Source: Monoplex corrugatus | Lineage: Eukaryota > Mollusca > Gastropoda > Littorinimorpha > Ranellidae | Length of the DNA: 64,000 bases | Assembly: GCA_030674185.1 (NCBI GenBank) | Contig: JAPXFY010000013.1 | Location: 47,444,464 to 47,508,463, forward strand | Reading direction: 5' to 3' | In this document: positions 1,405-18,974 of the stretch, piece by piece | How the letters are laid out: each line of letters opens with the position of its first letter | How positions within the stretch are numbered: the stretch's first letter is position 1 | Program-made: the position numbers and the translations under genes | Notes under the pieces: model-generated | Told to the model about the DNA's origin: nothing | What the model saw: only the letters and a program-made list of their open reading frames with translations | Database searches by the model: none

Positions 1405-2579
1405 TGAAGCTACCTCTCAAATCCATAGTGGAGGAATACAAAGTTGGAAAAGCAAGACTGTTGAGCATGCTGGAGGAATCGGAAGACAATATCGTGAGAT
1501 CAGTTCATCCAAAGCTGAGAACTGGCAGAAAGTGGAAAGTCCAAGAGGCTGTAAACAATGCCAAGAGAAACCTCAGCATCAAAGAAATAATTGGACACAC
1601 GCAAACCAACAGACAGGGACTGGGAGCAACAAAAATGCAGTGGTGGTCCAAAGCCAAAGGGAAGGAAAAAAGAGACATGATCATACAGGAGTTGAAGGAA
1701 GAAGAAGATGTCAAAAGAGTGCAGAAGGCAGTCCAGCAAGGTCAACAGGGGCAATGGACAACATGGGACAGTGCACTCCAAAGAAGTCTCAGCTGGAACG
1801 ATATGTGGCACATGGCTCCTCTAAGGATAAGCTTCCTCCTCAGATCTGTATATGACCTGCTCCCCTCGAATGCAAACTTAGTGAAATGGGGGAAAGCAGA
1901 CGACCCAGCATGTCCGCTCTGTCAGAAGAAACAAACAGTGGAACATGTCCTAAGCTCTTGCAAAGTAGCGCTAGCCCAAGGAAGGTATACATGGAGGCAC
2001 AACCAAGTTCTGAAAGTGATCACAGATGTGGTTAGCGAAAAAACCATGACCCCAAACGCACCAATTGCTATGACAACGTTCTACAAAGCAGGAGGGAAAC
2101 AGGTCTGGCCCGAAAGTGCTATGACAACCAGCACATTGCCAAAGGGTCTTCTGGATGGAGCAGTCGACTGGGAGTGTACAGCAGACCTCCCAGAGTGGAG
2201 AAATTACCCAGATGTCATCAGCAAGACAGGCATGAGACCAGACATCGCTCTCCACTCTGACTCCTCGAAACAAGTGATTCTGATAGAACTCACTGTGCCA
2301 TACGAAAGCAGAATGGAAGAAGCACATATCTACAAGACCGAAAAATACGCCGGTCTTGCCAGCACCCTGAAGAAAGCAGGTCTGCGGGTCAAAATCTTCG
2401 CCATAGAGGTCGGGGCAAGAGGGTTTGTGGGCACCTCCGCTTATGATCTCATGAAACAACTCGCCATTTCTGGGAAGAAGAGGACTAGAGCCCTTAAAGC
2501 GATGGCAGAGGCAGCAGAAAGGAGCTCAAGCTGGATCTGGGCAAGGAGGAACGAAAAAAGTGAACTTCATAAGGATTAA
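1404..2579 (+). pseudogene. C-terminal fragment of retrotransposon ORF, open, with junction-made ATG
   Basis: The open frame of 391 codons equals the last part of the full ORF at 3088-6336. In the full copy the codon at the 5' junction is CTG (Leu). Here the flanking A at 1404 turns it into ATG, so the fragment has an in-frame start. It would encode the CCHC knuckle (CPLC...HVLSSC) and the RLE domain (RPD...ELTVP) without the reverse transcriptase. There is no sign of a promoter of its own. I treat it as a truncated element gene that has not yet decayed, not as a functional host gene. Confidence 0.85.
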
Positions 2580-2598
2580 ATTCCCTACAGATGATGTG

Positions 2599-2678
2599 TG
2601 CCCCGTTAGCACATTGGTAAAACCGCGTACCGCAGTTCTGAAGCGCAGAATCGCCCAGGTTCGATCCCCGGCGTGGGA
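2599..2678 (+). other. tRNA-like module in retrotransposon 3' tail (copy 1)
   Basis: Starting 19 bp after the ORF stop there is a tRNA-like segment. An A-box-like TAGCACATTGG lies at 2607-2617 and a B-box GGTTCGATCCC at 2658-2668. The ends TGCCCCG and CGTGGGA could pair as an acceptor stem at 5 of 7 positions. A T arm CCAGG-TTCGATC-CCCGG has one mismatch, and an anticodon-arm-like GTTCT/AGAAT stem has a 7-nt loop. The loop lacks the usual U33 and there is no normal D stem, so it is not a working tRNA. It resembles the tRNA-derived head of a SINE, with a possible internal Pol III promoter. Confidence 0.7.
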
Positions 2679-2716
2679 AAATTTTAAAAATAAAAAATAA
2701 GACAACAGCAGAAGGG

Positions 2717-2740
2717 CATCCAGGAGTCATGACCTGGATG
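2717..2740 (+). other. 3'-tail hairpin of the retrotransposon (copy 1)
   Basis: CATCCAGG (2717-2724) and CCTGGATG (2733-2740) form a perfect 8-bp stem with an 8-nt loop. The same hairpin is at 6474-6497 in the full copy. A GGCCC/GGGCC pair flanks the next segment. Structured 3' UTRs are typical recognition sites for the reverse transcriptase of R2-type elements; that role here is inferred. Confidence 0.6.
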
Positions 2741-2852
2741 TGGCCCGGCCCCCCGAGAGTGTAAGGAATTCAGGGCCGAAACACTTGTCTAAAGGGGGTT
2801 ACTTCTCTGAAGACCTTCTGTTGTCTAGCTCTCCCTAGAGTTTCTTTCTACC

Positions 2853-3087
2853 TGCACATGGTCAGTCCATTGACTTCCGGGAATAGTTCGGAGGACATTC
2901 GGGAAAGACCGAAGGACACTGGGAAAGACTAGATCTGCGGGCTTTGTGGGTTGGCTTCCCACCTTGCCTTTGATAACATGCCACGAGTTTTTCAAATGAA
3001 AGATGCTCCCAGGATTCACCGAAAGGGGGAGAGAATGATGAATCCATCGGCACTGACTCCATCACGACTGGAAACGCACAACGGACC
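2853..3087 (+). other. 5' UTR of the full-length retrotransposon
   Basis: This segment precedes the first ATG. The ORF frame stays open upstream of that ATG to position 2977, just after in-frame TGA and TAA (2971-2976). Translation could therefore begin at a non-AUG codon up to 37 codons earlier. An overlapping short ORF starts at ATG 3034 and ends at the TGA spanning 3088-3090, overlapping the main ATG. R2-type elements often have a self-cleaving ribozyme at the 5' end; I could not confirm such a fold here. Confidence 0.6.
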
Positions 3088-6000
3088 ATGATTAATGACC
3101 AGTTGGAATTTCCGTGTGCGTGTGGAAGGAGATTCACCACCAAACGCGGCATGAAGATCCACAGGACAAAAATGGGCTGTTTGAAGACACATACGAACCA
3201 GCAGCAGCGCACTGCGATAGCAGGTGAGACGTTGGATGACCAAGGCCAGGAATTAAACCATAGTGCCAAGGACATCCACGCTGACGGTTCTGATGCGGAT
3301 TTTGCACAAGCTCTTAACGCCAAACGTGGAAAACTCAATTTGCCGCCTGCCGGTGCAAAAGAACAATGGGAGAAATTAGATGAGGAACTTGTCCTTAAGC
3401 TGAATGCGCTAATAGGGAACAGTACGCTGGAACACAAACTTGACACATACGGAGACATCATATACTCTATCTGCAGGGACACTTATGGAGTGAAGCAGCC
3501 AAAGACAAAAACGCCTCCCCAGAAATCCAGAAGACAGCAACAGATGGAGAGCATCCGGAGGGAGAAAAGGAAGCTTAAAAAGCGAATGAAAACTGCCTCA
3601 GAATTCGAGAAGCAAGGGCTCCTGGAACTCTGGAAAGATCTGAAGGCCAAACACAATGCTCTCAGCAAAGTGGAATCAGCAAGGCGAAGAAAGAGCAAAA
3701 AGAAGAAGACTCAAGATCGTTTCTTCAAAGATCCCTTTGACTTTTCAAGAAAGCTGTTTGAACAACCCAAATCAGGGACTCTCACAGTGGGCAAGGAAAC
3801 CCTAGAGCAGCATCTCAGGGAAACATATTCCGATTCTCAGCGCGAGGCACCACTTGAAATCCAGAATCTGGTTTGGCCTGCAGCGCCAGAAGGAAAATTC
3901 AATAACAAACCACCAACACTGGATGAAGTGAAGAACGTAGTAAAGAAAGCCAGAGCCAAGTCAGCACCTGGACCAAACGGAATACCATACCTGCTCTACA
4001 AGAAATGCCCAAAAGTGCTCGAGTGGCTCCACAAGATGATTCGATCAGCATGGAGGAACCAGAAGATCAGCGACCAATGGATGAGAGCTGAAGGAGTGTA
4101 CATTCCGAAGGAGCAGAACTCCAGCAGCATCAATCAGTTCAGGCCAATATCACTTCTGAACGTCGAGGGGAAAATCTTCTTCTCTGTTATGGCAGCAAGA
4201 TTGACAAAATACCTGACTGAAAACAAGTATCTGGATATGTCAGTCCAAAAGGGAGGCATACCAGGAATGCCTGGATGCTTGGAACATGCCACGTTGATTT
4301 GGGATGCCATCCAAAAAGCAAGAACAGAGAAGAGAAACATTGACGTAGTTTGGCTTGATCTGGCGAATGCATATGGATCAGTTCCACACGATATGATCCA
4401 GCTGGCTCTTGAAATGTATCACATCCCAGAAAACATCCGAACAATGCTGAGGAAGTATTTCCAAGGGTTCTCAATGCGGTTCTCTACCAAAGAATACACC
4501 ACGGACTGGATAGACCTAGAGGTGGGCATTGCAATGGGCTGTGCAATCTCTCCCATACTGTTCGTGTTGGCAATGGAAGTCATCTTGAAAGCTGCAATGA
4601 AGAGTTCAGGTCCAGTGAATCTGGGAGATGGATACCAGATGCCTCCTCTGAAAGCTTTCATGGATGACACAACAGTCTTGTCCACGGATGAGGAAGAGAC
4701 ACACCAAATCTTAAAGCAGCTGGATGAGCTGGTGGCCTCTTCAAGAATGAGGTTCAAACCTAAGAAATCCCGAAGTCTCTCACTGCGAAAAGGAAAAGTG
4801 GCAGATTCAGTCAAATTCATGGTAGCCAACCAAGCCATCCCCACTGTCACAGAAGAGCCAGTAAAAAGTCTCGGAAGATGGTATGATGACTCCCTGAAAG
4901 ACACAAAAAGGGGATGTGAAACCAAGCAAACAGCAGAAGAAGGCCTGAAGAAAATAGATAACTGCGGACTGCCAGGCAAATACAAAGTCTGGTGTCTACA
5001 GTTCATGCTGATACCAAAGCTGCTGTGGCCACTGCTAATCTATGACATTTGCACCAGCACAGTCGAAGCAATGGAAGCCAAAATCAACAAATACACAAGA
5101 AAATGGCTCGGTGTCCCACCTGGTCTCACTGATGTTGCATTCTACTGTCGTCAAGCAATGCTGAAGCTACCTCTCAAATCCATAGTGGAGGAATACAAAG
5201 TTGGAAAAGCAAGACTGTTGAGCATGCTGGAGGAATCGGAAGACAATATCGTGAGATCAGTTCATCCAAAGCTGAGAACTGGCAGAAAGTGGAAAGTCCA
5301 AGAGGCTGTAAACAATGCCAAGAGAAACCTCAGCATCAAAGAAATAATTGGACACACGCAAACCAACAGACAGGGACTGGGAGCAACAAAAATGCAGTGG
5401 TGGTCCAAAGCCAAAGGGAAGGAAAAAAGAGACATGATCATACAGGAGTTGAAGGAAGAAGAAGATGTCAAAAGAGTGCAGAAGGCAGTCCAGCAAGGTC
5501 AACAGGGGCAATGGACAACATGGGACAGTGCACTCCAAAGAAGTCTCAGCTGGAACGATATGTGGCACATGGCTCCTCTAAGGATAAGCTTCCTCCTCAG
5601 ATCTGTATATGACCTGCTCCCCTCGAATGCAAACTTAGTGAAATGGGGGAAAGCAGACGACCCAGCATGTCCGCTCTGTCAGAAGAAACAAACAGTGGAA
5701 CATGTCCTAAGCTCTTGCAAAGTAGCGCTAGCCCAAGGAAGGTATACATGGAGGCACAACCAAGTTCTGAAAGTGATCACAGATGTGGTTAGCGAAAAAA
5801 CCATGACCCCAAACGCACCAATTGCTATGACAACGTTCTACAAAGCAGGAGGGAAACAGGTCTGGCCCGAAAGTGCTATGACAACCAGCACATTGCCAAA
5901 GGGTCTTCTGGATGGAGCAGTCGACTGGGAGTGTACAGCAGACCTCCCAGAGTGGAGAAATTACCCAGATGTCATCAGCAAGACAGGCATGAGACCAGAC

Positions 6001-6336
6001 ATCGCTCTCCACTCTGACTCCTCGAAACAAGTGATTCTGATAGAACTCACTGTGCCATACGAAAGCAGAATGGAAGAAGCACATATCTACAAGACCGAAA
6101 AATACGCCGGTCTTGCCAGCACCCTGAAGAAAGCAGGTCTGCGGGTCAAAATCTTCGCCATAGAGGTCGGGGCAAGAGGGTTTGTGGGCACCTCCGCTTA
6201 TGATCTCATGAAACAACTCGCCATTTCTGGGAAGAAGAGGACTAGAGCCCTTAAAGCGATGGCAGAGGCAGCAGAAAGGAGCTCAAGCTGGATCTGGGCA
6301 AGGAGGAACGAAAAAAGTGAACTTCATAAGGATTAA
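3088..6336 (+). CDS. Retrotransposon polyprotein: zinc finger, reverse transcriptase, RLE endonuclease
   Basis: The protein is 1082 residues and intact. Residues 8-31 form a CCHC finger (C10, C12, H25, C31), the usual DNA-binding N-terminus of this group. A basic Lys/Arg-rich linker follows. The reverse transcriptase starts near SAPGPNGIPY (292-301). Catalytic Asp424 lies in LDLANAYGS, and the active-site pair Asp526-Asp527 lies in FMDD (524-527), with GIAMGCAISPILF before it. The knuckle C861-x2-C864-x7-H872-x4-C877 precedes the restriction-like endonuclease with RPD (969-971) and ELTVP (986-990). In the family this protein binds its RNA, nicks the target and primes cDNA synthesis on it. All catalytic residues I can check are present, so the copy may be active. 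The start at 3088 is the first ATG; an upstream non-AUG start is possible. Confidence 0.93.
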   Translation: MINDQLEFPCACGRRFTTKRGMKIHRTKMGCLKTHTNQQQRTAIAGETLDDQGQELNHSAKDIHADGSDADFAQALNAKRGKLNLPPAGAKEQWEKLDEELVLKLNALIGNSTLEHKLDTYGDIIYSICRDTYGVKQPKTKTPPQKSRRQQQMESIRREKRKLKKRMKTASEFEKQGLLELWKDLKAKHNALSKVESARRRKSKKKKTQDRFFKDPFDFSRKLFEQPKSGTLTVGKETLEQHLRETYSDSQREAPLEIQNLVWPAAPEGKFNNKPPTLDEVKNVVKKARAKSAPGPNGIPYLLYKKCPKVLEWLHKMIRSAWRNQKISDQWMRAEGVYIPKEQNSSSINQFRPISLLNVEGKIFFSVMAARLTKYLTENKYLDMSVQKGGIPGMPGCLEHATLIWDAIQKARTEKRNIDVVWLDLANAYGSVPHDMIQLALEMYHIPENIRTMLRKYFQGFSMRFSTKEYTTDWIDLEVGIAMGCAISPILFVLAMEVILKAAMKSSGPVNLGDGYQMPPLKAFMDDTTVLSTDEEETHQILKQLDELVASSRMRFKPKKSRSLSLRKGKVADSVKFMVANQAIPTVTEEPVKSLGRWYDDSLKDTKRGCETKQTAEEGLKKIDNCGLPGKYKVWCLQFMLIPKLLWPLLIYDICTSTVEAMEAKINKYTRKWLGVPPGLTDVAFYCRQAMLKLPLKSIVEEYKVGKARLLSMLEESEDNIVRSVHPKLRTGRKWKVQEAVNNAKRNLSIKEIIGHTQTNRQGLGATKMQWWSKAKGKEKRDMIIQELKEEEDVKRVQKAVQQGQQGQWTTWDSALQRSLSWNDMWHMAPLRISFLLRSVYDLLPSNANLVKWGKADDPACPLCQKKQTVEHVLSSCKVALAQGRYTWRHNQVLKVITDVVSEKTMTPNAPIAMTTFYKAGGKQVWPESAMTTSTLPKGLLDGAVDWECTADLPEWRNYPDVISKTGMRPDIALHSDSSKQVILIELTVPYESRMEEAHIYKTEKYAGLASTLKKAGLRVKIFAIEVGARGFVGTSAYDLMKQLAISGKKRTRALKAMAEAAERSSSWIWARRNEKSELHKD

Positions 6337-6355
6337 ATTCCCTACAGATGATGTG

Positions 6356-6435
6356 TGCCCCGTTAGCACATTGGTAAAACCGCGTACCGCAGTTCTGAAG
6401 CGCAGAATCGCCCAGGTTCGATCCCCGGCGTGGGA
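6356..6435 (+). other. tRNA-like module in retrotransposon 3' tail (copy 2)
   Basis: This is identical to the module at 2599-2678. The B-box GGTTCGATCCC is at 6415-6425 and the A-box-like TAGCACATTGG at 6364-6374. It follows the ORF stop by 19 bp and is followed by an A-rich spacer (AAAATTTTAAAAATAAAAAA) and the hairpin tail. Presence in both copies shows that it is part of the element, not a chance insertion into one copy. Confidence 0.7.
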
Positions 6436-6609
6436 AAATTTTAAAAATAAAAAATAAGACAACAGCAGAAGGGCATCCAGGAGTCATGACCTGGATGTGG
6501 CCCGGCCCCCCGAGAGTGTAAGGAATTCAGGGCCGAAACACTTGTCTAAAGGGGGTTACTTCTCTGAAGACCTTCTGTTGTCTAGCTCTCCCTAGAGTTT
6601 CTTTCTACC

Positions 6610-9417
6610 ATATTCAAGAAATGAATGAGATTCAGAACTGTGGTCCTAGTCTTCCTAACAAGCCTACAGCATGATAAACTCTGGGTAGAGCCAGTGGGAG
6701 CTGAAAAATTCATGCTATTGTTTTGGACTGACAGGGGTTCATATCTTAGTAATTATCTACCATCTCTCTATATGTCGTCCATTTTGTTAACCATTTTGAC
6801 ATGTTGGCTGGTTCCGTTATTGTCTCTATTCATTTCAAGAGCTCTCCGGAGTTAATCCCATAACCTGGCTAGTATGCAAGGTGAATGCACAGTCTATGTC
6901 ATTTGCTATGATAAATTTCAATCTACTGAATATGACACTTGTGTCACAGCACATATGGAATCATCTGCTCATTCATCAAGGCATTTTTTTAAGGAGAAAA
7001 TAAAAGTGCAACTTGCTAACAGCGTGTATCAAAGATTTAGAAACAGTCATCAATGGGCATTTCTCATTCTTTTGTACTTTATTCCTTCTATCTAAATATT
7101 CCTTCTATCTCAGGTGTGTGTGCAAGTTGCAAGTAACAAATTTTATGTAAAATGTACACATTTACAACAACACAATTATGTACTTACATTCAAGTAAAAG
7201 ATCAATAAGTTTTAAAAAAATGTAAAACATGATGGTTCTATAAATGTTTCAAAACCAATCCACATAACAGAAAAAAACAACAACCGATTTTAAAATACAA
7301 CGCACAGCTGTTCCAAACGTTTTGTGAAATTTGAGTCAATAATAGAATGTATACAAAAAGTTACAACACGACACTTACTATATGCTGTGGGCACTCCAAT
7401 AGAAAGCAAATATAATAATATGAAATCAGTGATCACAGTACTTTTATCGACAGACCAATTCTGAAAAAAAGTGATTTTCACATATAAATTCCCATTCAGC
7501 AGGTACACTTACCATATCCAACGTTGTACAAACTAAACAGGAATTTACATGAAAAACTTCCTTCATCACAGCATTTTGACCTACGGACCAATTCTTAAAA
7601 TGTCTTTTTTTATTCAATTAAGAACAGACCAATTCATAAAATGTTTTTTTATCAGTTAAAGAACAATTCTTAATGACATTTTTTGAATCAACAAGACCAA
7701 TTCTTATACAAACAATAACACCCCTTCCCCATCCCAGTTTTTAATAAAAATGCAACATTTCAACTGCAATATATTAATGCAACAAAGCGATATCTTTACA
7801 TAATGAAGAAATTATATTTCCCATTAAATGTTCACATCCTAATGTTAACTTCATCTTCATATGTTCCTGGATCATGATGTGGGTTGGTGGGGCACAACAA
7901 ATGAATTCTTGATAATTTTTTCCATCTCCGTGTTTTTTGCAACCCCTATCAACTTCCAAAATTCTACACATTATCAAAGAAATGAAAGAAGTGGATGATA
8001 GATGATTTCCTAACAAATTTCTCCACCTATCTGTGTTCTTCATAAAAAGCTCTATCCATTTTCCAAACTGTACACAAATAACCAATAAATGAAATAAACA
8101 AAACTCCCAGAACAGGACTCCTTGCATCTCCTGTCCTTTCCCCTGCCAACGTAAGAGGAAGGCATCCAAAGCTTCTAGCAACTACTGTATTCACAGGCAG
8201 AAGAACTTAAATACTGTGATATTATAAGTGCTGATCTTTCAGAAAGCATTAGCTACACAAAGCTGGAAATCCATATACACACCGTAGCAGAATAGCAATA
8301 ATACAACATGTATCCTGTATTATCTAAATTAATCTATAATCATAAATCAACACGAAGCCTCATAACTGGTTTTATTTTATTTCATTTCCTGTGCCATGCT
8401 GCTACTGCTCACCTCCTTTTTTAATAGACAGATAAGCCCTCAATAGTTGTTAGGAATGACTGGTATAGAGGCAGAGCTTCCCTCCTTCTAATCTGCCTGC
8501 ACAAGTGCGCATAGGGCAAATCACGCCTGAGGAACTCTGTATGTGCATGCTGAATCCATCCACCAAGTTGTGAATGAGTAATTAGTTGACTTCAGGATTT
8601 GGAAGGGTGGGAGTGGGGGTTAAAGCAGCAAGGGACACAAGTGGAACCAATCCTAAGAGAACCTGATGCAAGAATACATAGTATCTACTACCTCACCCTC
8701 CGAACAATCTAGTTTACAGTTATGAGACTTCCTGGACTCTCTTTTCTTATGTCTTACATCCTGGACTTTTTTCCTTGTCTTACAGGACCTTGATTTTTTT
8801 TTTACATCTTACCAGCCAACAACATCAAGGTTTTTAGGGCACTGTTAGGAAACAATCTGTGCACTGAATAACATTTTGGTCTGTGCACAATCTTTACAAT
8901 CCCACCACCTTACAGCTATTCTGTATTATGCATACAGATTTCCAGCTTGAAACAAGCACGCAACTCCGCTAAGAAGATGACAAACATCAACATGAAATGA
9001 AAACATAACATGGGAAAGGGTGAAGGCAAAGAGACAGAAGATGATATTCAGACAGAAGAAAACAGTGATGGACAGATTAAGTAAAAGCAAGGTGATGATG
9101 TGCAGAGAACACTGATGGGAGAATGATGAAGGTTAAGCTGGAAAATGAGGATGTGGGGAGGACACAGAAAGGAATTAAAAATGCTTGAAGAGGGGGAAAA
9201 GTGATGCAACAATTCGCCACTTCCCATTTCGCTACATGCCATTAATTCCACATTTATCAGTCGAGTAAGCACGTCTGGATTTTAGTGTCAGTTTGTCATA
9301 TCCGTCAGTTATCATTTTCAAGGACTTTGTAGACTTCATAACTTTCCCAAGATCTTGCCTGTGTGTACAGTTTATGCATGAATGCATTTGTGCATGGTGT
9401 GTGAGTGTGTACGCGCA

Positions 9418-10486: not shown

Positions 10487-10640
10487 CATCACCACCACTT
10501 ATAGTGGTTGGGGGGGAGGGGGGAGAATCCATGTCCACTCTGTGATTCAAACGCTGGACCTCAACTGTCCTAGGCTGGTGTGTGGGGTTTGGAATCTGGA
10601 ATTTGTTTTTCTTCTTTGGTTTGCTATTTACACAGTCACC
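10487..10640. repeat. Dispersed SINE-like fragment with G-rich block
   Basis: The block CACCACTTATAGTGG, then a G-rich run, then GTCCTAGG-type sequence recurs at 37692-37815 (CACCACTTAAAGTGG, poly-G, GTCCTAGG). The minus strand reads a B-box-like GTTTGAATC. I infer an old SINE family; the boundaries are soft. Confidence 0.45.
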
Positions 10641-10644
10641 ATCA

Positions 10645-11922
10645 GTTTCCAATAACCTTGTCTATTCCCTTCAGTCTGCTTACCGTTCTGGACATAGTAC
10701 CGAAACTGCTCTTCTCAAAATCTGCAACGACTTACTGACTACTCTCGACTCTAACAACGTATCACTTTTGACTCTCTTGGACCTATCTGCTGCCTTTGAC
10801 ACTATTGACCACTCTATCCTTCTCTCCCGTCTACATCACTCTTTTGGGCTCCATGATACTGTCTTGAACTGGTTTCATTCTTACATCACCAATCGTCTGC
10901 AAGTAGTTTCTGTCAATGGTCTTTCTTCTAATCCTTCCTGTCTGACTTACGGAGTGCCACAAGGATCTGTTCTGGGCCCCCTACTTTTCATTCTCTACAC
11001 CTACCCTGTCTCCTCTATTGTCCAAGAACACCTGCTTCAGCATCATTCTTTCTCGGATGACAATCAGCTGTATGTCTCTGGGCCTCTCCCTGACCTTCCC
11101 ATCATGATCCAGAAAACCCAATCTTGTGTAGCTGACCTGAAGGATTGGATGACTGAAAACAAACTGAAATTAAATGAAGAGAAATCCGAATTGATCTTGA
11201 TCACCCCACCCAAACTCCAAAATCACCCCTCTCTTCCAACCTCTGTCACACTTGTTGACTCATCTATCCCTCTCTCCCATTTTGCCCGTAACCTTGGTGT
11301 AGCTCTTGATCAAACCCTGTCCTTCCGCCAGCATGTGAGCAACGTCTGTCGGACTTGTTTTCTTGAACTCCGCCGAATTGCTTCTATCCGCCACCTCCTC
11401 TCAGAAGACACGACAAAGGCTCTTGTCTGTGCATTTGTTCTATCCCGTCTCGATTACTGTAATGCTCTTTTTTCTGGTTCCCCCTCTCATCTCATTAACA
11501 AACTTCAGAAAGTTCAAAATCATGCTGCCCGTCTCATCTTCCGCTCTTCAAAATTTAACCATGTTACGCCATTGCTCTGTTCTCTCCACTGGCTCCCTGT
11601 TCAGCAAAGAATATCCTACAAGATTGCCTGCCTCTGCTTCAAATCTATTGAGTCTTCCTGTCCTGAGTATCTCACCCATCTGTTACATCTCTACACGCCA
11701 TCTCGAGCTTTGCGGTCCTCATCTGATACCCGTCTCTATAGTATCCCTATAGTCCGCACTAAAAGGTTTGGGCAGCGTTCTTTTTCCTATCAAGCTCCAA
11801 CCATCTGGAATCAGTTACCTCGCTCTCTTAGATACTCACCCTCTCTGTCCACATTCAAACGCTCCCTCAAAACTTACCTGTTTCCCAAAACTGGTAATCT
11901 CTGCCCCCTTCCCCCCATGTAA
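10645..11922 (+). pseudogene. LINE reverse transcriptase, 5'-truncated but open
   Basis: An open frame runs to the TAA at 11920-11922. Similarity starts near YSLQSAYRSGHSTETALL, the standard opening of this RT family. Then come LDLSAAFDTIDHS (catalytic Asp), YGVPQGSVLGPLLF and the active site FSDD in place of the usual YADD/FADD, with both Asp kept. The C-terminal part (LDYCNALFSGSP, QNHAARLIF, TPLLCSLHWLPVQQRI) is typical of L2/Jockey-like elements. The upstream end of the frame (from 10582) reads through unrelated flank. It cannot transpose alone because the APE endonuclease is absent. Confidence 0.88.
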
Positions 11923-15739: not shown

Positions 15740-18350
15740 AGCCACCTAAATAATCTGTCTGTGACTGACATTTTTTGTGTATTATCACCTCCTATTCAAT
15801 CACCTAAATAATCTATGACTGACAGTTTTTGTGTACTATCATCTCCTATTATATCACCTAAATACTCTGTGACTGACAGTTTTTGTGTACTATCACCTCC
15901 TATTACATCACCTAAATAATCTGTAACTGACATTTTTTGTGTACTATCACCTCCTATTACATCACCTAAATAATCTATGACTGACAGGTTTTGTGTACTA
16001 TCATCTCCTATTACATCACCTAAATACTCTGTGACTGACAGTTTTTGTGTACTATCACCTCCTATTACATCACCTAAATAATCTGTAACTGACAGTTTTT
16101 GTGTAATATCACCAGCTATTCAATCGCCTAAATGATCTGTGACTGACAGTTTTTGTGTACTATCACCTCCTATTACATCACCTAAATAATCTAAGACTGA
16201 CAGGTTTTGTGTACTATCACCTCCTATTACATCACCTAAATACTCTGTGACTGACAGTTTTTGTGTACTATCACCTCCTATTACATCACCTAAATACTCT
16301 GTGACTGACAGGTTTTGTGTACTATCACCTCCTATTACATCACCTAAATAATCTGTGACTGACAGTTTTTGTGTACTATCACCTCCTATTACATCACCTA
16401 AATAATCTGTGACTGACAGTTTTTGTGTACTATCACCTCCTATTACATCACCTAAATACTCTGTGACTGACAGGTTTTGTGTACTATCACCTCCTATTAC
16501 ATCACCTAAATAATCTGTGACTGACAGTTTTTGTGTACTATCACCTCCTATTACATCACCTAAATAATCTGTGACTGACAGGTTTTGTGTACTATCACCT
16601 CCTATTACATCACCTAAATACTCTGTGACTGACAGGTTTTGTGTGCTATCACCTCCTATTACATCACCTAAATACTCTGTGACTGACAGGTTTTGTGTAC
16701 TATCACCTCCTATTACATCACCTAAATAATCTATGACTGACAGTTTTTGTGTACTATCATCTCCTATTACATCACCTAAATACTCTGTGACTGACAGTTT
16801 TTGTGTACTATCACCTCCTATTACATCACCTAAATAATCTGTAACTGACATTTTTTGTGTACTATCACCTCCTATTACATCACCTAAATAATCTATGACT
16901 GACAGGTTTTGTGTACTATCATCTCCTATTACATCACCTAAATACTCTGTGACTGACAGTTTTTGTGTACTATCACCTCCTATTACATCACCTAAATAAT
17001 CTGTAAATGACAGTTTTTGTGTAATATCACCAGCTATTCAATCGCCTAAATGATCTGTGACTGACAGTTTTTGTGTACTATCACCTCCTATTACATCACC
17101 TAAATAATCTATGACTGACAGGTTTTGTGTACTATCACCTCCTATTACATCACCTAAATACTCTGTGACTGACAGTTTTTGTGTACTATCACCTCCTATT
17201 ACATCACCTAAATACTCTGTGACTGACAGGTTTTGTGTACTATCACCTCCTATTACATCACCTAAATACTCTGTGACTGACAGTTTTTGTGTACTATCAC
17301 CTCCTATTACATCACCTAAATAATCTGTGACTGACAGTTTTTGTGTACTATCACCTCCTATTACATCACCTAAATACTCTGTGACTGACAGGTTTTGTGT
17401 ACTATCCCTCCTATTACATCACCTAAATAATCTGTGACTGACAGTTTTTGTGTACTATCACCTCCTATTACATCACCTAAATAATCTGTGACTGACAGGT
17501 TTTGCGTACTATCATCTCCTATTACATCACCTAAATACTCTGTGACTGACAGGTTTTGTGTACTATCATCTCCTATTACATCACCTAAATACTCTGTGAC
17601 TGACAGGTTTTGTGTACTATCATCTCCTATTACATCACCTAAATAATCTCTGACTGACAGGTTTTGTGTACTATCATCTCCTATTACATCACCAAAATAC
17701 TCTGTGACTGACAGGTTTTGTGTGCTATCACCAGGTATTCAATCACCTAAATAATCTGTGACTGACAGTTTTTGTGTACTATCACCTCCTATTACATCAC
17801 CTAAATAATCTGTGACTGACAGTTTTTGTGTACTATCACCTCCTATTACATCACCTAAATATTCTGTGACTGACAGGTTTTGTGTACTATCACCTCCTAT
17901 TACATCACCTAAATAATCTGTGACTGACAGTTTTTGTGTACTATCACCTCCTATTACATCACCTAAATAATCTGTGACTGACAGGTTTTGTGTACTATCA
18001 CCTCCTATTACATCACCTAAATATTCTGTGACTGACAGTTTTTGTGTACTATCACCTCCTATTACATCACCTAAATAATCTGTGACTGACAGGTTTTGTG
18101 TACTATCACCTTCTATTACATCACCTAAATAATCTATGACTGACAGTTTTTGTGTACTATCACCTCCTATTACATCACCTAAATATTCTGTGACTGACAG
18201 GTTTTGTGTACTATCACCTCCTATTACATCACCTAAATATTCTGTGACTGACAGGTTTTGTGTACTATCACCTCCTATTACATCACCTAAATATTCTGTG
18301 ACTGACAGGTTTTGTGTACTATCACCTCCTATTACATCACCTAAATAATC
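15740..18350. repeat. 54-bp minisatellite array, main block
   Basis: About 48 head-to-tail copies of a 54-bp unit, TCTGTGACTGACAGTTTTTG followed by TGTACTATCACCTCCTATTA and CATCACCTAAATAA. Variable positions include G/T after ACAG, ATAATC versus ATACTC, and CACCTCC versus CATCTCC. Because 54 is a multiple of 3, every unit repeats the same reading frame. The minus strand reads SVTDYLGDVIGGDSTQKL per unit and stays open from 16851 to 16120. Segments near 15810-16150 and 16728-17068 share the same rare variants at a 918-bp (17-unit) offset, indicating a higher-order duplication. A 1-bp deletion near 17406 breaks the frame. Confidence 0.97.
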
Positions 18351-18974
18351 TTGTGTACTATCACCTCCTATTCAATCACCTAAATAATCTATGACTGACA
18401 GTTTTGGTGTGCTATCACCTCCTATTACATCACCTAAATAATCTTGTGTACTATCACCTCCTATTCAATCACCTAAATAATCTGTGACTGACAGGTTTTG
18501 AGTGCTATCACCTAAATAATCTGTGACTGACAGGTTTTGAGTACTATCACTTTTTCAATCACCTAAATAATCTTGTGTACTATCACCTCCTATTCAATCA
18601 CCTAAATAATCTGTGACTGACAGGTTTTGAGTACTATCATCTTTTCATTCACCTAAATAATCTTGTGTACTATCACCTCCTATTCAATCACCTAAATAAT
18701 CTATGACTGACAGTTTTGGTGTGCTATCACCTCCTATTACATCACCTAAATAATCTTGTGTACTATCACCTCCTATTCAATCACCTAAATAATCTGTGAC
18801 TGACAGGTTTTGAGTGCTATCACCTAAATAATCTGTGACTGACAGGTTTTGAGTACTATCACTTTTTCAATCACCTAAATAATCTTGTGTACTATCACCT
18901 CCTATTCAATCACCTAAATAATCTGTGACTGACAGGTTTTGAGTACTATCATCTTTTCATTCACCTAAATAATC
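18351..18974. repeat. Higher-order repeat, two 312-bp units of deleted monomers
   Basis: From 18351 the array changes to a mix of shortened monomers (for example a 39-bp unit TCTTGTGTACTATCACCTCC ending CACCTAAATAA) and variants with GGTTTTGAGT. The block 18351-18662 is repeated at 18663-18974 at an exact 312-bp offset. Confidence 0.9.

Follow-up and report, generated by a model that had tools for sequence, protein, structure and literature searches.

Zebulon of Tetraodon, like the LINE described here, combines a reverse transcriptase (RT) with a C-terminal restriction-like endonuclease (RLE), and Bouneau et al. are said to have proposed in 2003, in Genome Res, that it moves as a partial tandem array. 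Zebulon is the precedent for this arrangement; its tail is not known to contain a tRNA-like module. Among other elements one Utopia family is occasionally inserted in tandem, and the HERO group contains many non-specific elements, according to PMC4640811. According to PMC11167929, the RT of Penelope-like elements (PLEs) is telomerase-like and is accompanied by a GIY-YIG nuclease and a hammerhead motif. TRE5-A, as described in PMC5391098, inserts at tRNA genes by B-box/TFIIIC targeting.

The window, a 64-kb stretch of the 3.02 Gb genome of Monoplex corrugatus in which module and LINE copies were also counted, includes two head-to-tail units of an RLE LINE. Unit coordinates are preceded by u, u1 being window position 2853. 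The features are as follows.

1405..2852, + strand: upstream unit, 5'-truncated (u2310-3757), including the 3' part of the ORF; 100% identical to 5162-6609
2577-2579, + strand: ORF stop of the upstream unit, read from the sequence
2599..2681, + strand: tRNA-like module, copy 1, from box scores and T-arm match; its part 2601-2669 has 7,007 genome copies
2607..2617, + strand: A-box-like TAGCACATTGG, 8/9 scored positions
2658..2668, + strand: B-box GGTTCGATCCC, 9/9 scored positions
2682..2685, + strand: TTTT, potential Pol III terminator right behind the module, read from the sequence
2686..2699, + strand: A-rich spacer, within an A-rich stretch from about 2677 to 2699, read from the sequence
2701..2830, + strand: structured 3' tail, copy 1, core GAGTGT...AGGGCCGAAACA; fold z -2.65, core 29/39 identical in the relative L002
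2853..6609, + strand: full unit (u1-3757), abutting the upstream tail without a gap; the junction recurs 1,839 times across the genome at <=3 mismatches
2977..6336, + strand: ORF of 1119 aa measured stop to stop, from translation and domain search
6356..6438, + strand: tRNA-like module, copy 2, identical to copy 1
6458..6587, + strand: structured 3' tail, copy 2, identical to copy 1

Zebulon-like partial-tandem LINEs are characterized by complete units that follow a 5'-truncated copy of themselves, as is seen here. Protein relatives from Branchiostoma and fish show 41-46% identity among the 120 matches listed, and the window protein shares 43% identity with a Tetraodon polyprotein, Q7T1J8 (P0085), which we take to be Zebulon. 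The order of domains is an N-terminal CCHC-type finger, RT (FMDD), a CCHC knuckle and RLE (RPD..E..KX2KY). Pfam searches identified RVT_1 (E 1.4e-22) and zf-RVT (E 3.2e-7), and in a 20-row alignment the knuckle residues C898, C901, H909 and C914 and the RLE residues R1006, P1007, D1008, E1023, K1039 and Y1043 are invariant, with K1042 nearly so. An RT with a zinc knuckle plus the RLE core RPD...E...KX2KY, the KX2KY motif being as in PMC5678591, defines the element as an RLE-type (R2-like) LINE; R2 proteins are also, by sequence, the nearest solved structures. Substitutions at 20 loci (21, 5 and 23 at ORF codon positions 1, 2 and 3) suggest that the ORF is under constraint, while the count of 0 in the module is uninformative because the loci were picked by tail identity. 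No protein relatives were found in plasmids, phages or viral contigs. When viral contigs were scanned with part of the tail core, 21 loci matched, none with tail context by eye and with no tblastn match better than E 0.24; a longer module pattern had 0 matches. Genome contigs contained no relatives when queried with the single protein and two, L001 and L002, when queried with an alignment. L002 is a distant, degraded relative with 41% best-segment identity.

The two window copies are 100% identical across 1448 bp (1405-2852 versus 5162-6609) and very probably represent a single insertion, hence the statement of the earlier note that both carry the module, which is correct, gains no independent support from them; such support comes from the genome-wide counts. 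Assembly duplication was rejected as their source, as the same junction lies at many places with different flanks. Unit starts number 1,899 genome-wide and intact tail-to-start junctions 1,839 (the latter at <=3 mismatches), independent totals unmatched by place, so that the difference of 60 may conceal real exceptions. All 20 sampled starts have a tail directly upstream, identical over 50 nt in 19 cases and a small variant in 1; this sample was obtained with u1-300 as the only query and comprises 20 of 40 listed matches (824 candidates, 40 scored). The junction was also present in 30/30 fetched loci of a second set, for which the query included 8 nt of the junction and which are not all separate, L046 being the window, L047 and L048 one array, and L041, L042 and L060 another. 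The points at which the upstream copy is truncated range from u1000 to u3464 and, although two are 1 nt apart, differ in all loci with a readable 5' host flank (19/21), and the 16 readable 3' flanks all differ. No clear target-site duplication was found at the loci, where shared flank runs are <=11 nt and either belong to simple repeats or do not coincide with the junction, and the insertions have no evident common target. The flanks of L073 are imperfectly similar. On C1, near 13.84 Mb, four modules spaced by about 3.76 kb form an array that includes three exact junctions, and internally deleted derivatives (L041/L042/L060 and L059) are found in head-to-tail arrays with different breakpoints and the module kept. 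Tandem layout is the rule for complete units genome-wide, which the earlier note had not noticed; within the sampling, the unit 5' end follows the tail of another copy of this LINE, and the truncation point of that copy varies.

These partial tandems fit reverse transcription of an RNA of more than one unit, in a Penelope-like manner. Target-primed reverse transcription would start at the structured tail of such an RNA, itself possibly generated by read-through of an array or from a circle, and the RT would copy one whole unit and halt within the next, leaving a truncated unit followed by a full one. That this LINE spreads as a partial tandem, with a captured tRNA-like module in its 3' UTR, is the explanation we consider probable. 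That none of the sampled 5' ends is free argues against a simple unit-length RNA. The same unit order would result if the RT finished a unit-length RNA, continued by a jump onto another such RNA at its 3' end and stopped inside it; template jumping by the R2 RT in vivo is described in PMC3414825. Such template jumping is nevertheless unlikely, as complete units with u1 beside host DNA should then be numerous, whereas the sample includes 0/20; the 1,839 junctions for 1,899 starts, the uniformity of the junctions (in 19/20 the 50 nt that precede u1 are identical) and the C1 array near 13.84 Mb, with its four modules and three exact junctions, also count against it.

Of 35 exact starts on C1, 18 are without an exact module upstream; when the comparison is restricted to the 22 starts that carry an exact module themselves, 12 have an exact upstream module and 10 do not. 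The upstream copy may therefore often be without a module, and mutated modules could also explain the 10/22. A cut at one fixed tail site in about half of the upstream copies may occur, though the 18/35 figure is confounded by module mutations; the 22 starts divide 12 to 10.

The module starts at 2599, 19 nt past the ORF stop, and the starts of its A-box and B-box, scored against the usual box consensus, are 51 nt apart; a second A-box-like site at 2615 has a score equal to that at 2607. A pair of this kind was found in 1/4000 dinucleotide shuffles of 2580-2852 and at a mean of 0.03 in 30 shuffled 64-kb windows (both strands), which together with the 8/9 A-box is consistent with a SINE-type A/B-box promoter sequence. 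The B-box region alone is weaker, a 14-mer at <=3 mismatches having 2 matches against 0.61 expected, and 11/100 shuffles reaching 2. The tRNA-like pairing proposed in the earlier note was borne out in part: the T-arm agrees with a human tRNA-Ala T-arm at 18/19 positions, and the best cloverleaf has 16/21 pairs, a value reached by 47/3000 shuffles in which the B-box was kept. This cloverleaf, whose register starts at 2605 and leaves the A-box at 2607 unused, is beyond chance yet weak; with the A-box start the score is equalled by 75/3000 such shuffles. In the fold check suggested in that note, ARAGORN recognized 0 tRNA genes at default thresholds and made a low-scoring call only when these were relaxed, and Rfam had no tRNA match in 2500-2900 up to E=10. 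The module is not a tRNA gene in the sense of a cloverleaf accepted by a tRNA model.

The module (2601-2669) is found in 7,007 genome places and the ORF end plus module in 6,966, both at <=3 mismatches and with 0 matches for reversed-pattern controls; these too are independent totals, and the difference of 41 may conceal real exceptions. The module is thus a fixed part of the LINE 3' UTR, where it follows the ORF stop and precedes the structured tail, and its occurrence inside an autonomous-looking RLE LINE, as first noticed from the window, extends to thousands of copies. It had been suggested that the LINE gives rise to SINEs, Pol III transcribing module and tail and the product being retrotransposed. 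The tRNA-like head, spacer and LINE tail indeed have the layout of a SINE, and the A/B boxes exceed chance. However, no sizeable population of solo modules is indicated at <=3 mismatches by the near-equal counts, so independent short copies lacking the LINE ORF, the mark of tRNA-derived SINEs, are not seen in any number at that threshold; the window includes no other module copy (blastn; B-box 14-mer). In addition TTTT (2682-2685), directly behind the T-arm, separates module from tail and speaks against a Pol III transcript that extends into the latter. A role as SINE progenitor is therefore very improbable, being largely refuted at <=3 mismatches by the counts and the T-run.

The A-rich spacer and hairpin tail had also been correctly recognized. 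Segment 2698-2830 folds with z -2.65 (1/200 shuffles equally good), while module and tail jointly (2597-2849) give z -1.09, with 30/200 shuffles as good; the tail is likely the element recognized by the RT. Its core is 29/39 identical in L002 (E 7e-5), where a closing helix of other sequence begins 6 nt past the ORF stop, with the whole L002 tail folding no better than shuffled sequence (z -0.18, 76/200 shuffles as good). L002 has no A/B-box pair and no module. A known ribozyme at the junction was rejected: Rfam at gathering score had no match in the whole window, and below threshold 2500-2900 and 2700-3080 had weak matches only, without hammerhead or HDV-type families, RAGATH-25 being among those in the junction region (minus strand, E 6.6-7). 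In L001 and L002 there was no ribozyme match in Rfam up to E=1.

Recurrence of the tail core in L002 without the module makes the module look captured. It may have been the head of a tRNA-derived retroposon taken up into the 3' UTR, and would then be neither part of the ancestral RT-recognition structure nor a SINE progenitor. Against capture, the comparison involves one distant degraded relative, loss of the module in L002 would explain its absence too, and no target-site duplication flanking the module was recognized by eye. The proposal that the RT recognizes an RNA structure to which the module belongs is favored by the closeness of the module to the tail and by its retention in two internally deleted derivatives; it is weakened by L002, which keeps tail core and closing helix without the module, and by the weak tRNA fold, and we consider it quite unlikely. 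Targeting by the tRNA-like structure had been proposed too, and B-box/TFIIIC recruitment of insertions could produce tandems: according to PMC5391098, TRE5-A depends on the B-box and is able to use loci that have A/B boxes but no tRNA gene. The module is nevertheless unneeded for tandems, because L002 (RLE, then tail, then the finger of the next unit, E 1.4e-4) and, by a 119-nt overlap of its ends, L001 are tandem without it; the position of the tail-to-start junction moreover does not shift by a base between the loci inspected. Recruitment by the module is very unlikely.

The module most likely either has no role, hitch-hiking with the LINE, or helps through TFIIIC-type boxes to transcribe the downstream unit from a pseudo-LTR position, since duplication of the tail places it about 250 bp upstream of a complete unit wherever the upstream copy keeps it. 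A promoter role would be suggested by the boxes and their position. It is opposed by TTTT at 2682-2685 and TTTTT at 2988-2992, which should halt Pol III before the ORF, and by the 10/22 C1 starts without an exact upstream module; truncation points within the ORF also place the start of many RNAs well before the tail. A bolder and rather improbable reading has the duplicated tail acting as a pseudo-LTR with TFIIIC-binding boxes, in an autonomous LINE that does not spread as a monomer and relies on the module of the preceding copy for transcription or processing of RNA that is longer than a unit or circular. The module is a candidate promoter in a pseudo-LTR, and its fixation in a LINE suggests that SINE-type heads move into LINEs, against the usual direction. 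With about 1,900 starts and 7,000 modules in one genome, the template origin of partial tandems (read-through, circle or jump) becomes directly testable.

Compared with known systems, the LINE resembles Utopia in having a single ORF that encodes N-terminal fingers, RT, knuckle and RLE, and the non-specific elements of HERO in that its insertions share no evident target; tRNA genes are targets of some NeSL-related families, not parts of them (PMC4640811). In R2 SIDEs, as described in PMC3414825, both ends are kept after internal deletion, as in L041/L042/L060 and L059; the SIDEs keep a 5' ribozyme, whereas Rfam found none here, and the deleted derivatives of the window LINE lie in head-to-tail arrays. 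Its A/B-box head, A-rich stretch and LINE tail are those of tRNA-derived SINEs (SINE2), from which it differs in that the module is practically always attached to a LINE ORF. Tandem and partial-tandem copies of PLEs likewise set a repeated UTR before the ORF as pseudo-LTRs (PMC11167929), but the window LINE has RVT_1, zf-RVT and the RLE core, no Rfam gathering match, no GIY-YIG domain in Pfam and no hammerhead in Rfam, weak junction matches included. The Helenus and Cassandra TRIMs also include a Pol III-type RNA-gene sequence within a repeated terminal region (PMC10886601); they are short non-autonomous LTR elements, while the element described here is a LINE with its own RT. If the pseudo-LTR reading is true, this LINE would be the counterpart of Cassandra and Helenus and would connect the life cycle of LINEs with that of Penelope.

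The window includes a retrotransposon of the restriction-like endonuclease (RLE) type, a LINE with two units arranged head-to-tail. Unit coordinates (u1-u3757) start at window position 2853.

1405-2852: 5′-truncated unit, 100% identical to 5162-6609
2853-6609: full unit
2977-6336: ORF, stop to stop, 1119 aa

The ORF includes the domains RVT_1 and zf-RVT, and among solved structures its protein is best matched by R2 proteins. The nuclease core RPD...E...K...Y, which contains the KX2KY motif described in PMC5678591, is invariant in 20 aligned rows. Of 7,992 candidates scored, 582 were relatives of the protein, and the best 120 of these were listed. By eye, the unit 5′ region (2853-2976) shows GGAAAGAC-like repeats located outside the open frame; some relatives seem to read such a region as an N-terminal protein extension. 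The window also includes a second reverse-transcriptase ORF (10546-11922, RVT_1, 458 aa) and, on the − strand, long open frames at 16120-17037 and 17739-18371 built of a tandem repeat (DYLGDVIGGDSTQ...), which are probably a minisatellite rather than genes.

An earlier note had claimed a tRNA-like Pol III module in the 3′ tail of both copies. Its location was confirmed: the module starts 19 nt past the ORF stop, its A-box at 2607 fits at 8/9 positions and its B-box at 2658 fits perfectly, a pair matched in only 1/4000 shuffles of 2580-2852; a second A-box-like site at 2615 has an equal score. The module folds poorly: the cloverleaf has 16/21 pairs (equalled in 47/3000 shuffles with the B-box fixed) and its register leaves the A-box at 2607 unused, ARAGORN at default settings found 0 tRNA genes, and Rfam gave no tRNA match at E up to 10. 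We read the module as the decayed head of a tRNA-derived SINE, not as a tRNA. No such module in the tail of an autonomous LINE is announced in the titles and abstract openings searched, which included few subscription papers; this is weak evidence of novelty. As a consequence of the following T runs, Pol III should stop ahead of the LINE tail and of the ORF.

2682-2685: TTTT behind the module
2988-2992: TTTTT

Counts over the whole genome (3.018 Gb, 7,621 contigs) were obtained using 69-nt patterns with up to 3 mismatches; reversed-pattern controls gave 0 in every case. The module was found at 7,007 places and the ORF end plus module at 6,966, and therefore the module practically always belongs to the LINE; likewise, 1,899 unit starts against 1,839 tail-to-start junctions indicate that a start practically always follows a tail, these four counts being independent totals whose remainders (41 and 60) could reflect indels, mutations or genuine exceptions.

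The tail (2698-2830) has a good fold (z -2.65; 1/200 shuffles equally good) consisting of a closing helix, a 9-bp hairpin and an inner helix around AGGGCCGAA. Folding the module jointly with the tail gives a less striking result (z -1.09). L002, a LINE relative from a Solemya symbiont assembly contig with 41% identity (best segment) and a broken frame, matches the tail core at 29/39 positions (E 7e-5), and its closing helix, different in sequence, begins 6 nt past the stop. Since its overall fold does not stand out from shuffles (z -0.18, 76/200), the structure common to both rests on core and closing helix. Downstream of the ORF, neither L002 nor another relative, L001, showed an A-/B-box pair (best B-boxes 6/9 and 7/9). 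Because of this and of the position of the L002 helix, the module and A-rich spacer (100-odd nt) appear to have been added between the stop and the tail. The RLE LINE sequences L001 (PIVK01000096.1) and L002 (NZ_MPRK01000146.1) were deposited within bacterial assemblies (MAG or symbiont), probably through contamination by animal host DNA, for L002 judging from the contents.

The junction was present in 30/30 loci fetched using the tail plus 8 nt of the next unit (40 scored matches out of 240 candidates), a query that biases the sample toward it; these loci are not all separate, as L046 is the window, L047/L048 are one array and L041/L042/L060 another. With u1-300 alone (40 scored matches out of 824 candidates), the tail end was directly before u1 in 20/20 starts inspected over 50 nt upstream, 19 exactly and L088 as a small variant; they represent 20/21 matches on contig C2 and 0/19 on C1. 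In L088 the changed sequence lies after the closing helix and before the TTTCTTTCTACC end, and u1 still follows. Exact module copies on C1 occur as pairs and one array, spaced about 3.75 kb. Across 20 longer loci and the window, the upstream copy begins anywhere from u965 to u3464, and truncation points differ in 19/19 loci with a readable 5′ host flank (two are 1 nt apart), the flank being unreadable at L064 (N before the copy) and L065 (edge of the stretch). The readable 3′ flanks (n = 16) are all different, and no clear target duplication was seen in the flanks of these loci. At L073 the two host flanks resemble each other imperfectly for some 30 nt, which could be either a local repeat or a target duplication of some age.

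TPRT of unit-length RNA would be expected to yield complete units that abut host DNA, of which the sample includes 0. Template jumping by the reverse transcriptase, known for R2 in vivo (PMC3414825), could generate the tandem, but it predicts free unit starts too, unless the jump is nearly certain, and the sample has none. A template RNA longer than one unit, whether circular or made by reading through an array, would predict a uniform junction, a scattered upstream end and some multi-unit arrays, as seen. In L001 the ends overlap by 119 nt; together, L002 and L001 suggest that the tandem habit can do without the module.

Within the tandem, the module can stand about 250 bp ahead of a complete unit, as a pseudo-LTR would, and possibly helps in transcription of the LINE. 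In the 17/35 exact C1 starts that have an exact module upstream, the module begins 241-279 nt before u1; the distance thus varies among C1 copies even with module and start both exact. An exact upstream module is missing in 10/22 starts whose own module is exact, for which mutation may account; mutation aside, this counts against a necessary role. Two internally deleted derivatives, in head-to-tail arrays with both ends kept, retain the module with the tail.

L041/L042/L060, contig C18 near 32.459 Mb: u1-643 + u3451-3757, period about 0.95 kb
L059, contig C2397: u1-782 + u3377-3757, period about 1.16 kb

This retention is compatible with function, and also with mere keeping of the 3′ end. Hitch-hiking and promoter help are left side by side as possible readings of the module, neither being preferred.

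Among known elements, Zebulon reportedly moves as a partial tandem. The genomic layout described for Penelope-like elements (PMC11167929) is the same as that of this LINE. The help with transcription that the LINE module may give matches a proposal made for Cassandra and Helenus (PMC10886601).
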